A stretch of DNA of 64,000 nt from Streptomyces koelreuteriae (GTDB lineage Bacteria > Actinomycetota > Actinomycetes > Streptomycetales > Streptomycetaceae): positions 6,262,001 through 6,326,000 of the forward strand of contig NZ_CP075896.1 of assembly GCF_018604545.1 (NCBI RefSeq), read 5' to 3'. Every line of letters begins with the position of its first letter. The first letter of the stretch is position 1. The translations under genes were made by a program, and so were the position numbers. The notes under the pieces were generated by a model. The model was not told the origin of the DNA. It made no database searches and worked only from the letters and a program-made list of their open reading frames with translations. This document shows, in pieces, positions 8,529 through 60,229 of the stretch.

Positions 8529-9851
8529 GTGAACGCCCATCGCAAGCAGCTCCTCCTGCTCGCCGGACCCGTCTATCTCTCGCTGCTCGCCTCCGTCGCC
8601 GCGGGGATCATCAACACCGTCTGGGTCGCGCGGCTCGGCAGCCCGGCCGTGGCCGCCGTGGCCGTGGCGACCAACACGGAGAACGTGCTGCTCGGCATCG
8701 CCCTGGTCTTCGGCTCCGGCACGACCGTGCTGGTCGCACACGCCCGGGGCGCCCACGACCCCGTGGCCGTACGGGCGGCCATGCGCGGCGGATGGGCGCT
8801 GTGGGCGCTCGTGACACCCCTGGTGGTGGCGGGCGGACTGCTGGGACGCGAACCGCTGGCCCGGCTGGTGCTGGGCGGCGCCGACAGCGCCGCCCTCCCG
8901 CTCGCCGTCGCCTACTTCACGCTCTCCCTGCCGGGCATGGCCGTCTTCTTCGCCCAGCAACTCGTCGACGGCCTCCTCAAAGGCACCGGCGACACACGCA
9001 CCCCGCTACGGCTCGCCCTGCTCTCCAACGGCCTGATCCTGGCCCTCGACCCGCTCTTCATCCACCTCTACGGCGTCCGGGGCGCCGCGGCCGCCACGGT
9101 GCTGTCCCGGTCCGTGGCGCTCGGGGCGGGACTCCTCGCGGTACGGCGCAACGCGCTGCTGCGCGAGGCACGCGAGGCGGAGACGGGCGAGTCCCTGGCC
9201 GTCTCCCTGCGCCGGACCCTGTCGACCGGCCTGCCCATGTCCGCCGACTTCACCGTGCGGCAGACGGGCGCCCTGGTCCTGGTCGCGATCGTGGCGCGGC
9301 TCGGGGTGACGTCGGTGGCCGCGTACGCGATCGCCTACAAGGTCATGTACGTGGCGACCATGGCCTTCTACGCCGTCCGCCAGGCCGCCGCCATCCACAC
9401 CGCGCACACCCGGGGCGCGGGGGAGGACGAGCGGCGGGCGATCGGGCGGCAGGCCGTGCTCGTCTCCGGCGCCCTGGGCCTCAGCGCGGCCGTGCTGCTG
9501 GCCGCCGGTGCCCCGTGGCTCATGGCCGCCTTCGGGTCCGGGCCCGGGGTCGCGGGCGAGGGTGTGCTGTTTCTGCGCTGCGTCGGGCCCTGTCTGCTGC
9601 TCATGGCCTGTCTCGTCGCGCTCGGCGGGGTCTTCGAGGGCAGCGGGGGCGCCTCGGCGCTGCTGCGGGTGACCGTGCTCGGGACCGCGGTGCAGCTGGC
9701 GCTCGCGTACGGCTTGACGGGGCTCGGGCTGCCGGGGGTGTGTCTCGCGCTGGGGCTCGCGACGGCGGTGCAGTGCGGGCTGGCGGGTGTGCTGTTCCGG
9801 CGGGCCCCGGCTCAGGAGGAGACGGGGGTCTCGCCCGCGCGGGCCGGCTGA
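8529..9851 (+). CDS. MATE family multidrug efflux transporter
   Basis: A 440-residue inner-membrane protein with about 12 hydrophobic helices. It starts at GTG 8529 with N-terminal QLLLLAGPVYLSLLASVAAG, the typical MATE first helix. The two six-helix repeats are recognisable (N-half LIFGSGTTVLVAHARGA-like region, C-half LPMSADFTVRQTGALVLVAI). It should export cationic drugs or metabolites using a Na+ or H+ gradient. It is divergent from padR and its 3' end runs 40 bp into the convergent mannosyltransferase gene. Confidence 0.88.
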   Translation: MNAHRKQLLLLAGPVYLSLLASVAAGIINTVWVARLGSPAVAAVAVATNTENVLLGIALVFGSGTTVLVAHARGAHDPVAVRAAMRGGWALWALVTPLVVAGGLLGREPLARLVLGGADSAALPLAVAYFTLSLPGMAVFFAQQLVDGLLKGTGDTRTPLRLALLSNGLILALDPLFIHLYGVRGAAAATVLSRSVALGAGLLAVRRNALLREAREAETGESLAVSLRRTLSTGLPMSADFTVRQTGALVLVAIVARLGVTSVAAYAIAYKVMYVATMAFYAVRQAAAIHTAHTRGAGEDERRAIGRQAVLVSGALGLSAAVLLAAGAPWLMAAFGSGPGVAGEGVLFLRCVGPCLLLMACLVALGGVFEGSGGASALLRVTVLGTAVQLALAYGLTGLGLPGVCLALGLATAVQCGLAGVLFRRAPAQEETGVSPARAG

Positions 9852-57378: not shown

Positions 57379-57828
57379 GTGAGCAGTAAACCCGAACTCA
57401 AGGGGAGGGCGGCCGGTCTCGCGCGGCTCTTCCCGACCGGTAAGGCACAGGCGGCCCGCATGCCGTTCGTGCTCCTCGTGGTCCTCCTGCTCGGCGGCGG
57501 CCTCATCAGTCTCCTGGTGCTGAACTCGGCGCTCAGCGAAGGCGCGTTCAAGCTCGACGATCTCCAGCGCGAGACCAAGAGCCTCACCGACGAGGAACAG
57601 GCCCTCCAGCGGGACATCGACGCCTACTCCGCCCCCGAGGCCCTTCAGCGCCGCGCCCGCGAGCTCGGCATGGTCCCCGGCGGCGACCCGGCCTTCCTCG
57701 AGCGCGACGGCACCGTCAAGGGCGTCCCCAGTGCCGCCCCCGGCGCCTGGCAGACCGCCGCCCACATCCCCCTCGTCCTCGCCCCCGAGGCCATGCCCAA
57801 CGGCCCCGCCCCGACCCCCGGCAGGTGA
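57379..57828 (+). CDS. ftsL: Cell division protein FtsL
   Basis: A 149-residue bitopic division protein. The cytoplasmic N-terminus is followed by one membrane helix (FVLLVVLLLGGGLISLLVL), then a heptad-like helix (LQRETKSLTDEEQALQRDID) that would pair with DivIC/FtsB. The position between rsmH and ftsI is diagnostic. The C-terminal Pro/Ala tail ends PTPGR at a TGA lying within the 56-bp repeat. The start is GTG 57379. Confidence 0.9.
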   Translation: MSSKPELKGRAAGLARLFPTGKAQAARMPFVLLVVLLLGGGLISLLVLNSALSEGAFKLDDLQRETKSLTDEEQALQRDIDAYSAPEALQRRARELGMVPGGDPAFLERDGTVKGVPSAAPGAWQTAAHIPLVLAPEAMPNGPAPTPGR

Positions 57829-57864
57829 CGGAAGTGTCCGACAGGGAACCCCCGCGCCGGCGTG
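57809..57864 (+). repeat. 56-bp direct repeat, copy A (ftsL end / false ftsI start)
   Basis: This segment covers the last codons of ftsL, its stop, GTGACGGAA, and a GTG followed by codons for SDREPPRRR. It is identical over 56 bp to copy B at 58246-58301. The two copies lie 437 bp apart, so their downstream reading frames differ. Confidence 0.95.
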
Positions 57865-58265
57865 CCCCGGCCCTCGCCGAGCCCGCCTGCCCTCGTGATC
57901 CCGGCGCTCGCCCGGCTCTTGGCGCGGTCTCCGCTCGCGGATTCGCGGTGGCTCGGGTCTCGGGCCGGGTAGCTCGGGTGTCTGCCGGGTGGTCTCCGTT
58001 GGGTCAAGCCCGTGGCGGTGCCGGGGCCGGCGGGCTCGATGCCCGGTGCCGCCGTGCGGCGGGCCTGGCCGGGTCCGCCTGTCTCCGTGATCCCGGCGTT
58101 CGTCCGGCCCCTGGCGCGGTGTCCCCTCGTGGGCTCGCGGCCGCTCGGGTGTTCGCCGGGCCGTCGCCGTTGTGCGCCCTCGGCCCCGAGGCCCGGGGCC
58201 GGATCGGCCGTGGGGCCCCAGCCGTGTCCGTCAGTCCCCAGTCCACCCCGACCCCCGGCAGGTGA
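57834..58265 (+). pseudogene. Frame-shifted duplicate of the ftsI 5' end
   Basis: An open frame of 143 codons starting with the same residues as FtsI (VSDREPPRRR) and ending with the same residues as FtsL (PTPGR, stop). It is therefore a chimera produced by duplication of the ftsL-ftsI junction. The body is Ala/Gly/Pro/Arg low complexity with two diverged internal repeats about 190 bp apart (CGTGATCCCGGCG at 57894 and 58086). It lacks a membrane helix or any domain. It could be translated, since it keeps the ribosome site, but no function is apparent. Confidence 0.45.
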
Positions 58266-58301
58266 CGGAAGTGTCCGACAGGGAACCCCCGCGCCGGCGT
58301 G
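58246..58301 (+). repeat. 56-bp direct repeat, copy B (true ftsI start)
   Basis: Exact copy of 57809-57864. Its GTG at 58271 opens the long ftsI frame. Confidence 0.95.
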
Positions 58302-60229
58302 TGCCCGGTCCTGCCAGGCCCGCTCGGTCTGATGCCCGGCGGCGGCCGGGGCCCGGTGCGCGGCCGGTGCGGCGGCCGGGTCAGGGACGGCCGGGGGCGT
58401 CCCGGCCGCTGCGGCTGGGCAGTCCCCGGCCCCGGCTGCGGCTGGTCGGGCTCGCGCTGACGCTGGTGATGATCGCCTTCGTCGTGCGGCTGTTCCAGGT
58501 GCAGGCCGTCGACGCGAGCACGTACGCGGCCAAGGCCGAGCAGAACCGCTATGTCGGGCAGGTGCTGGCAGCCGACCGGGGCGAGATCACCGACCGGTCC
58601 GGTGTGGCCCTGGCGACCAGTGAGGACGCCTACGACATCACGGCCGACCCCACCATGTTCGCCCCGGACCACCTGAAGATCGGTGACGGGCCCGAGCAGG
58701 CCGCCGCGCTCCTCGCGCCGATCCTCGGCCAGGACCAGGAAGCCCTGGTCGAGAAGCTGCGGCCGAAGAACAAGAACCTGCGCTACGCGAAGCTGGCCTC
58801 CCGGCAGACCCCGCAGGTCTGGAAGCAGATCAAGGACCTGAAGTCCGCGCTGGCCAAGAAGGAGGAGACGGACAAGTCAGCGCACAACGTCCTCGCGGGT
58901 GTCTTCTCCGTCGCCACCAGCAAGCGCGTGTACCCCAACGGCGACCTCGCCGCCGGGATACTGGGCTGGGTCAACGGCGAGGGCAAGCCCGGCGGCGGCA
59001 TCGAACTGCAGCTGGACAAGGAACTGGCCGGCAAGGACGGCAAGATCCGCTACGCCCAGTCCGGCGGCCGTCTCGTCCCCACCGTGGGTTCCACCGAGAC
59101 CCCCGCCGTGCCCGGCAGCGACGTCGAGCTCACCATCGACCGCGACATCCAGTGGGCCGCCCAGAAGGCCATCAGCGACCAGGTGAAGGAGTCCGCGGCC
59201 GACCGCGGCTACGTCATCGTCCAGGACACCCGCACCGGACAGATCCTGGCCATGGCCAACTCACCCGGCTTCGACCCCAACGACCTGTCGGACGCCGACT
59301 CGGCGGCGCTCGGCAACGCGGCCGTCCAGGACGCCTTCGAGCCCGGCTCCACCGCCAAGGTCATGTCGATGGCCGCCGTCCTCCAGGAGAACACCGCCAC
59401 CCCGATGACCCACGTCGTCGTGCCCAACCGGCTGCACCGCGGCGACCGGCTCTTCAAGGACGACATCGACCACCCGACCTGGTACCTGACGCTCAACGGC
59501 GTCCTCGCCAAGTCGAGCAACATCGGCACCATCCTCGCCACCGGCCAGCTCCGCAAGACCCAGGCCCAGTCCAACAAGGTCCTCTACGACTACCTGCGCA
59601 AGTTCGGCCTCGGCGACTACACCGGCCTCGGCTTCCCCGGCGAGACCAAGGGCATCCTCGCCCCGCCCGACAAGTGGTCGACCTCGCAGCAGTACACGAT
59701 TCCTTTCGGCCAAGGCGTCTCCATCAACGCCATGCAGGCGGCGTCCGTGTACTCGACCATCGCCAACGGCGGCGTCCGCGTCGAACCCTCGCTCGTCCGC
59801 GGCACCAAGGGCCCCGAAGGCCGCTTCGCCCCGGCCCCCGAGCCCAAGAAGACGCGGGTCGTCAGCACCAAGACGGCGAAGACCCTCGCCCAGATGCTGG
59901 AGTCCGTCGTGGACGACGAGGAGGGCACCGGCACCAAGGCGCGCATCCCCGGCTACCGCGTCGCGGGCAAGACGGGCACGGCCAACCGCGTGGATCCGGC
60001 CACCGGCAAGTACCACGGCTATACCTCGTCCTTCGCCGGCTTCGCGCCCGCCGACAAGCCCCGCGTGACCGTCTACTGCGCCATCCAGAACGCCACCCAG
60101 GGCAGCTACTTCGGCGGCCAGATCTGCGGCCCCGTCTACAAGCGGGTCATGGAGTTCGCACTGAAGTCCCTCCAGGTCCCGCCGACCGGCGCCAAGGCCG
60201 CGAAGCTGCCCGTCTCCTTCCAGAACTGA
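58271..60229 (+). CDS. ftsI: Septal transpeptidase FtsI (PBP3)
   Basis: A 652-residue class B penicillin-binding protein cross-linking septal peptidoglycan. A Pro/Arg-rich cytoplasmic N-terminus (about 55 residues) precedes one membrane helix (LVGLALTLVMIAFVVRLF). A dimerisation domain and the transpeptidase follow, with nucleophile Ser360 (GSTAKVM), SSN in AKSSNIGT and Lys567 in GKTGTAN. GTG 58271 was chosen because it sits in the repeated junction, after a GACGGAA purine stretch; an ATG at 58172 lies in the duplicated low-complexity part. Confidence 0.93.
   Translation: MSDREPPRRRVPGPARPARSDARRRPGPGARPVRRPGQGRPGASRPLRLGSPRPRLRLVGLALTLVMIAFVVRLFQVQAVDASTYAAKAEQNRYVGQVLAADRGEITDRSGVALATSEDAYDITADPTMFAPDHLKIGDGPEQAAALLAPILGQDQEALVEKLRPKNKNLRYAKLASRQTPQVWKQIKDLKSALAKKEETDKSAHNVLAGVFSVATSKRVYPNGDLAAGILGWVNGEGKPGGGIELQLDKELAGKDGKIRYAQSGGRLVPTVGSTETPAVPGSDVELTIDRDIQWAAQKAISDQVKESAADRGYVIVQDTRTGQILAMANSPGFDPNDLSDADSAALGNAAVQDAFEPGSTAKVMSMAAVLQENTATPMTHVVVPNRLHRGDRLFKDDIDHPTWYLTLNGVLAKSSNIGTILATGQLRKTQAQSNKVLYDYLRKFGLGDYTGLGFPGETKGILAPPDKWSTSQQYTIPFGQGVSINAMQAASVYSTIANGGVRVEPSLVRGTKGPEGRFAPAPEPKKTRVVSTKTAKTLAQMLESVVDDEEGTGTKARIPGYRVAGKTGTANRVDPATGKYHGYTSSFAGFAPADKPRVTVYCAIQNATQGSYFGGQICGPVYKRVMEFALKSLQVPPTGAKAAKLPVSFQN

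Follow-up and report, generated by a model that had tools for sequence, protein, structure and literature searches.

A duplicated stop-start junction between ftsL and ftsI in Streptomyces and the putative translational relay frame that it encloses

The ftsL-ftsI junction in Streptomyces koelreuteriae

The window, i.e. the whole stretch of 64 kb of Streptomyces koelreuteriae DNA analysed here, contains the division genes ftsL and ftsI with a third open reading frame between them (Table 1). Pfam matches place FtsL in the DivIC/septum formation initiator family and assign a transpeptidase and a PBP dimerisation domain to FtsI. As the initial annotation had reported, the junction is present twice: the 56-bp sequence CCCCGACCCCCGGCAGGTGACGGAAGTGTCCGACAGGGAACCCCCGCGCCGGCGTG occurs in two identical copies at an offset of 437 bp. 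Each copy holds the end of the frame upstream of it, CCCCCGGCAGG followed by TGA, the Shine-Dalgarno (SD)-like hexamer AGGTGA, which contains that TGA, and two GTG triplets. Judged from the general anti-SD sequence, AGGTGA would be capable of SD pairing.

In the first copy, the GTG at 57825 overlaps the ftsL stop codon in the −4 arrangement and a second in-frame GTG follows at 57834, 5 nt past AGGTGA. From the latter the middle frame comprises 143 codons (146 from the former), and it closes on the second copy of the ftsL tail, as had been described, where its TGA (58263-58265) overlaps the ftsI GTG at 58262. GTGA overlaps of the NTGA type exist at 57825-57828 and 58262-58265, and the same overlap is found at every junction of all the unfused cases described below. 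The diverged internal repeats noticed earlier in the spacer were also recovered; the two units share 79% identity across 109 nt at an offset of 192 nt, equal to 64 codons, and unit A represents an internal duplication that kept the frame.

Table 1 Features of the ftsL-ftsI region in the window
Feature	Position	Strand	Basis or remark
ftsL, 149 aa	57379..57828	+	ORF; Pfam PF04977 DivIC above cutoff
Junction copy 1: ftsL end, stop-start overlap, 40 nt opening the middle ORF	57809..57864	+	exact repeat
AGGTGA, SD-like hexamer enclosing the ftsL stop TGA (57826-57828)	57823..57828	+	sequence reading
Middle (putative relay) ORF, 146 aa; 143 aa with start at 57834	57825..58265	+	ORF; no Pfam match
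Internal repeat unit A, starting in the final bases of junction copy 1	57850..57958	+	sequence comparison
Internal repeat unit B	58042..58150	+	orthologous to the sole unit of S. violaceus (L031)
Junction copy 2: end of the middle ORF and true ftsI start region	58246..58301	+	exact repeat
ftsI, start GTG 58262 or GTG 58271	58262..60229	+	Pfam PF00905, PF03717

Apart from the 56-bp pair, the window has no exact direct repeats of 30 bp or more spaced 60-1500 bp apart. The survey was extended to 864 kb of the genome (the window together with 800 kb from its flanks and elsewhere, with the best 40 of 77 repeats for one segment). Among the longest matches listed, ftsL/ftsI was the only gene-junction repeat; the other close exact repeats of at least 30 bp among the matches listed were tandem-repeat arrays and scattered pairs, and no stop-start junction duplication elsewhere was apparent among the close repeats listed for these 864 kb. 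The junction repeat in the window is not a chance event. In the longest tandem array among the listed repeats the spacings were multiples of 138. A tandem array with a 138-bp (46-codon) period, apparently an in-frame repeat protein, is located at G000:C1:6233208-6234700 (L209) of the same genome.

Junction duplications in other Streptomyces and their frame

A single GTGA/AGGTGA stop-start junction joins ftsL and ftsI in most Streptomyces examined. In nearly all loci without duplication, the distance from the ftsL stop to the transmembrane (TM) segment of FtsI is 176-233 nt; it is somewhat different in other subgroups of the genus and reaches up to 576 nt in one (L173). Duplications were searched in two ways. 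A junction pattern search covered 393 Streptomyces, and 7 of the 194 pattern-matching genomes had adjacent copies; allowing three mismatches made this search too loose, and a second sample of the genus yielded mostly identical genomes. An FtsL search, using one genome per species for 84,980 species, was followed by a junction scan. Three genomes of the pattern search recur under other labels: G042 as L038, G277 as L033 and G312 as L079. The resulting cases (Table 2) form a scattered minority among their relatives. In S. olindensis (L040) a frame stays open for 128 codons or more, up to the contig end.

Table 2 Offsets between neighbouring junction copies
Genome	Offset (nt)	Remark
Window (S. 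koelreuteriae)	437	
S. lomondensis (L035)	644	
S. africanus (L042)	611	
S. tuirus (L037)	275 and 275	
NRRL S-455 (L033)	239	
S. djakartensis (L038)	239	
G009	368 and 248	
S. griseus NRRL WC-3645 (L079)	176	
G343	203	
G007	113	
S. violaceus (L031)	240	in-frame
S. viridochromogenes (L032)	60-nt remnant	in-frame; first SD damaged

No obvious junction duplication was seen in 30 loci screened from 60 pattern-negative Streptomyces by an FtsI search, where ftsL could be placed. The DNA of the window spacer had no homologue above noise in 40 mixed relatives or in 392 other sampled Streptomyces; its homologues in the clade of the window emerged solely via the FtsL search. Base-for-base conservation of the spacer in relatives, which the initial annotation had held to speak against its reading, was not found in the comparison across Streptomyces. 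The literature searched on Streptomyces ftsL/ftsI, with subscription journals mostly outside its coverage, contained no report of a junction duplication.

The initial annotation had pointed out that 437 is not divisible by three. This is true but not incidental, as all ten distinct offsets of the unfused cases (113 to 644 nt, Table 2) equal 2 mod 3. In each of these cases the next ftsI GTG precedes the stop of the middle ORF by exactly 1 nt, and AGGTGA and both GTGs are kept in all junction copies. By simple algebra, the middle frame can stop on the following ftsI start only if the offset is 2 mod 3. With 0 mod 3 the insert becomes part of FtsI; with 1 mod 3 ribosomes would read past that start out of frame. 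Among the cases found, none had an offset of 1 mod 3. The chance that ten distinct lengths all fall into this class is about (1/3)^10 = 2e-5, before openness is considered and uncorrected for shared ancestry. The joint probability of encountering no stops across the middle frames is about 0.01, with a single open frame not improbable on its own at ~80% GC. Several species inherited a single ancestral insertion; their offsets therefore count as less than fully independent, and the common descent implies that length changes preserved the frame.

The in-frame exceptions are S. violaceus and the remnant in S. viridochromogenes. The draft of S. violaceus NRRL B-2867, the nearest relative, contains N-runs, gaps and an adapter remnant, and its offset of 240 arises via two single-C deletions; if real, this offset would represent a fusion to FtsI.

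Divergence, composition and history of the duplicated segment

Substitutions in the middle ORF are spread evenly over the codon, with 0.23, 0.30 and 0.30 per site at positions 1, 2 and 3 in eleven comparisons; ftsL of the same species has a third-position excess (2/4/22 for the window versus S. violaceus). For the pairs window/S. violaceus and NRRL S-455/S. djakartensis, the middle ORFs are 81% and the ftsL genes 94-96% identical. Most gaps in the middle ORF are multiples of 3, GC at codon positions 1-3 is flat and the length varies from 38 to 215 aa across the cases. There was no Pfam match for the ORF at E ≤ 0.01 and no Rfam match for the segment at E ≤ 0.1, and RNA folding was not in excess of that of shuffled sequences (z −1.3 to +2.3, negative values being more stable). 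The Rfam result and folding no stronger than in shuffles speak against a structured cis-regulatory RNA. Given the even substitutions, the flat GC3, the lack of a Pfam match and of excess folding, the peptide looks unconstrained, and the even divergence and flat GC1-3 give no sign of purifying selection on it. The features that look to be kept are the ends, the frame and its openness, and not the peptide sequence.

The interiors are poor in adenine. On the coding strand, 57850-58240 of the window has 3% A and 18% T, and no other 361-nt stretch of the window is as poor in A as this interior. All interiors, including three unrelated ones, have 0-6% A, with T clearly above A in all save S. djakartensis; the 5′ end of ftsI is A-poor as well (4%). 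A lack of stops, of SD-like or of −10-like sequences would each be a candidate source of this depletion. The second most A-poor stretch of the window, 9401-9700 (~4% A, 19% T), is situated within an apparent MATE-like membrane transporter gene (8529-9851). The interiors might have come from simple tandem duplication of a longer stretch of ftsL-ftsI; this origin is not established, as their alignments to the 5′ end of ftsI and the 3′ end of ftsL reach weak significance at best.

The junction copies within one genome differ by a median of ~2 of 48 nt, and orthologous copies between species by means of 8-13. Copies are more alike within a genome than between orthologues, as is typical of gene-converted repeats, with the exceptions of S. 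djakartensis and the indel-affected S. violaceus. Thus, GACGGCAGTG is present in all three copies of S. tuirus, GTGACCGAC in both copies of S. africanus and GATGACGACCACGGCAGGC in both copies of NRRL S-455. The S. djakartensis locus (L038:3941-4230) has two unhomogenised junction alleles, GATGACGACTTC and TCCGACAGGGAACC, with 22 of 48 positions different. Its sister NRRL S-455 has the first-type allele in both copies, and its FtsI and middle ORF carry the same N-terminal allele. Only ~20-63 bp at the ends are shared in most cases, around an interior that is unrelated or highly diverged. Units have also multiplied: S. tuirus has two identical 275-bp units (a 335-bp exact repeat), and the two units of G009 differ by a 120-nt in-frame deletion.

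In a tree from rsmH-ftsL plus ftsI (G343 was outside this tree), most carriers belong to one clade of 14. The duplication is cleanly absent in S. coeruleorubidus, which is nested inside the carrier clade, and absent also in L044/L047; S. viridochromogenes has the remnant. S. griseus NRRL WC-3645 and G007 (L143) are placed among non-carriers, pointing to several origins. The initial annotation had proposed a recent duplication or gene conversion. A duplicated junction whose flanks are homogenised against a diverged interior agrees with this, and the homogenised copies together with the fast-diverging interior point to recombination or gene conversion between the copies. A one-off recent event does not fit, since the window interior is common to several related species and older than their split, and the interiors in other lineages are unrelated to it. 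Recombination between the repeats would explain homogenisation, amplification and clean loss alike.

A translational relay and its alternatives

We consider it probable that the segment is a translational relay ORF, tolerated since it hands ribosomes from ftsL to ftsI through two successive stop-start couplings. The NTGA overlap of −4 is the commonest coupling arrangement, and coupling declines with distance (PMC12548453). The 113-644 nt between ftsL and ftsI should for this reason end direct hand-over; a frame that fills the gap and has NTGA at either end would re-establish it. After terminating on ftsL, ribosomes would start again on the relay ORF, make a dispensable low-complexity peptide, stop at the second junction and there reinitiate on ftsI. 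Selection would retain only the length modulo 3, a frame free of stops and the signals at its two ends, leaving the length and sequence of the unit to drift. Recombination between the direct repeats may homogenise the ends and also expand, contract or remove the unit. Translation of the ORF and coupling at both junctions are predicted here from the DNA sequence: from the repeat, the frame rule, the neutral-looking peptide, the similar ends within genomes, and loss and amplification.

Known NTGA-coupled pairs (PMC12548453) resemble this arrangement in the GTGA overlap, an SD sequence holding the upstream stop and the expected dependence on upstream translation. They differ in that here two identical junctions stand in series around a peptide without sign of sequence selection, and the interval length changes in steps of three. 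As in regulatory uORFs and minigenes (PMC8092293, PMC8708949), a small upstream ORF may set the translation of the coupled gene; compared with these, the relay ORF is flanked by a structural gene on either side, can reach 215 codons and has no conserved stall or sensor sequence. Direct repeats, copy-number change and within-genome similarity are common to converted or unequally recombined tandem duplications. Here, however, the shared part is ends of ~20-63 bp, the interior is unrelated or diverged and the frame rule limits the survivors.

Several lineages with ftsL and ftsI 113-644 nt apart represent a natural experiment on translational coupling, in which the survivors reveal the retained property: frame, openness and two end signals, not the peptide. 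The need for coupling in a bacterial division operon becomes directly testable, and a plausible route is indicated by which new ORFs arise inside operons. Only tentatively do we suggest that relay ORFs form a class, in which duplicated stop-start junctions spread and persist by recombination and are tolerated via ribosome hand-on. Such a class could be a route for near-neutral, fast-evolving coding sequence inside conserved operons (gene birth from a duplicated hand-over site) and for conversion to rewrite the N-terminus of the downstream protein.

Alternatively, the first junction might be a decoy or attenuator selected for its effect, capturing ribosomes that leave ftsL and advantageously lowering FtsI relative to FtsL. 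Retention of AGGTGA and the GTGs in both junction copies and of the unit in most members of one clade agrees with this, and two serial reinitiations should give less than one. However, nothing would require the stop of a decoy frame to meet the ftsI start, as it does in every unfused case, and repeated loss and the length range of 113-644 suggest that the unit is tolerated and not tuned for a function; we judge this explanation unlikely. Because all offsets of the unfused cases are 2 mod 3 and keep the coupling to ftsI, a relay is a better fit than a decoy. Lowered FtsI output is possible with a relay. The operon had been called essential, but deletions of ftsL and ftsI in Streptomyces chiefly affect sporulation septation and ftsI is dispensable for growth (PMC8748795), so a moderate loss of FtsI could be tolerated.

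A functional small divisome-linked protein could account for the recognisable homologues with conserved ends in several related species. It is very improbable in view of the even codon-position substitutions, the flat GC, the missing Pfam match, the variable length and the unrelated interiors in three lineages. The sharp edge between identical core and unrelated interior in S. griseus NRRL WC-3645 and G343, and interiors that in most cases lack significant derivation from the flanking ftsI or ftsL, would suit the remnant of a mobile element with long target duplications. Yet no convincing further copy of the interior was found in the own genomes of the window (beyond weak noise), G343 and G312, and the window spacer is missing from the 392 sampled Streptomyces. 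In addition, there is no transposase, the spacer ORF is domain-free and the core repeats, in most cases 21-63 bp long, do not resemble the usual target duplications, all of which makes such a remnant just as improbable.

An assembly artefact, the other objection anticipated in the initial annotation, is the least likely explanation, and extremely so: many draft contigs stop at this GC-rich spot and suspect assemblies do occur there, but the window genome is one 8.6-Mb contig, analogues exist in further genomes made up of one contig, those of G009, G007 and G343 are located on contigs of 9.4-10 Mb and that of S. tuirus on one of 6.6 Mb, and the spacers are species-specific yet under one frame rule.

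Among the drafts, the duplication in Streptomyces sp. LUP47B (L090:4041-4347) is a clear case of a probable scaffold artefact, an N-flanked 100-bp repeat, and was rejected. So was L191 (G115 contig 124), a probable misassembly in which an ftsI 92% like that of the window is joined just upstream of the TM segment to unrelated genes, including a transporter solute-binding-like gene. Contigs end in or near the ftsL/ftsI junction in L033, L036, L040, L052, L060, L081, L085-L087, L089, L096, L100, L102, L105 and L106, from which it follows that short-read data under-report the insertions. The junction repeat may add to the breaking or misjoining of short-read assemblies at ftsL/ftsI.
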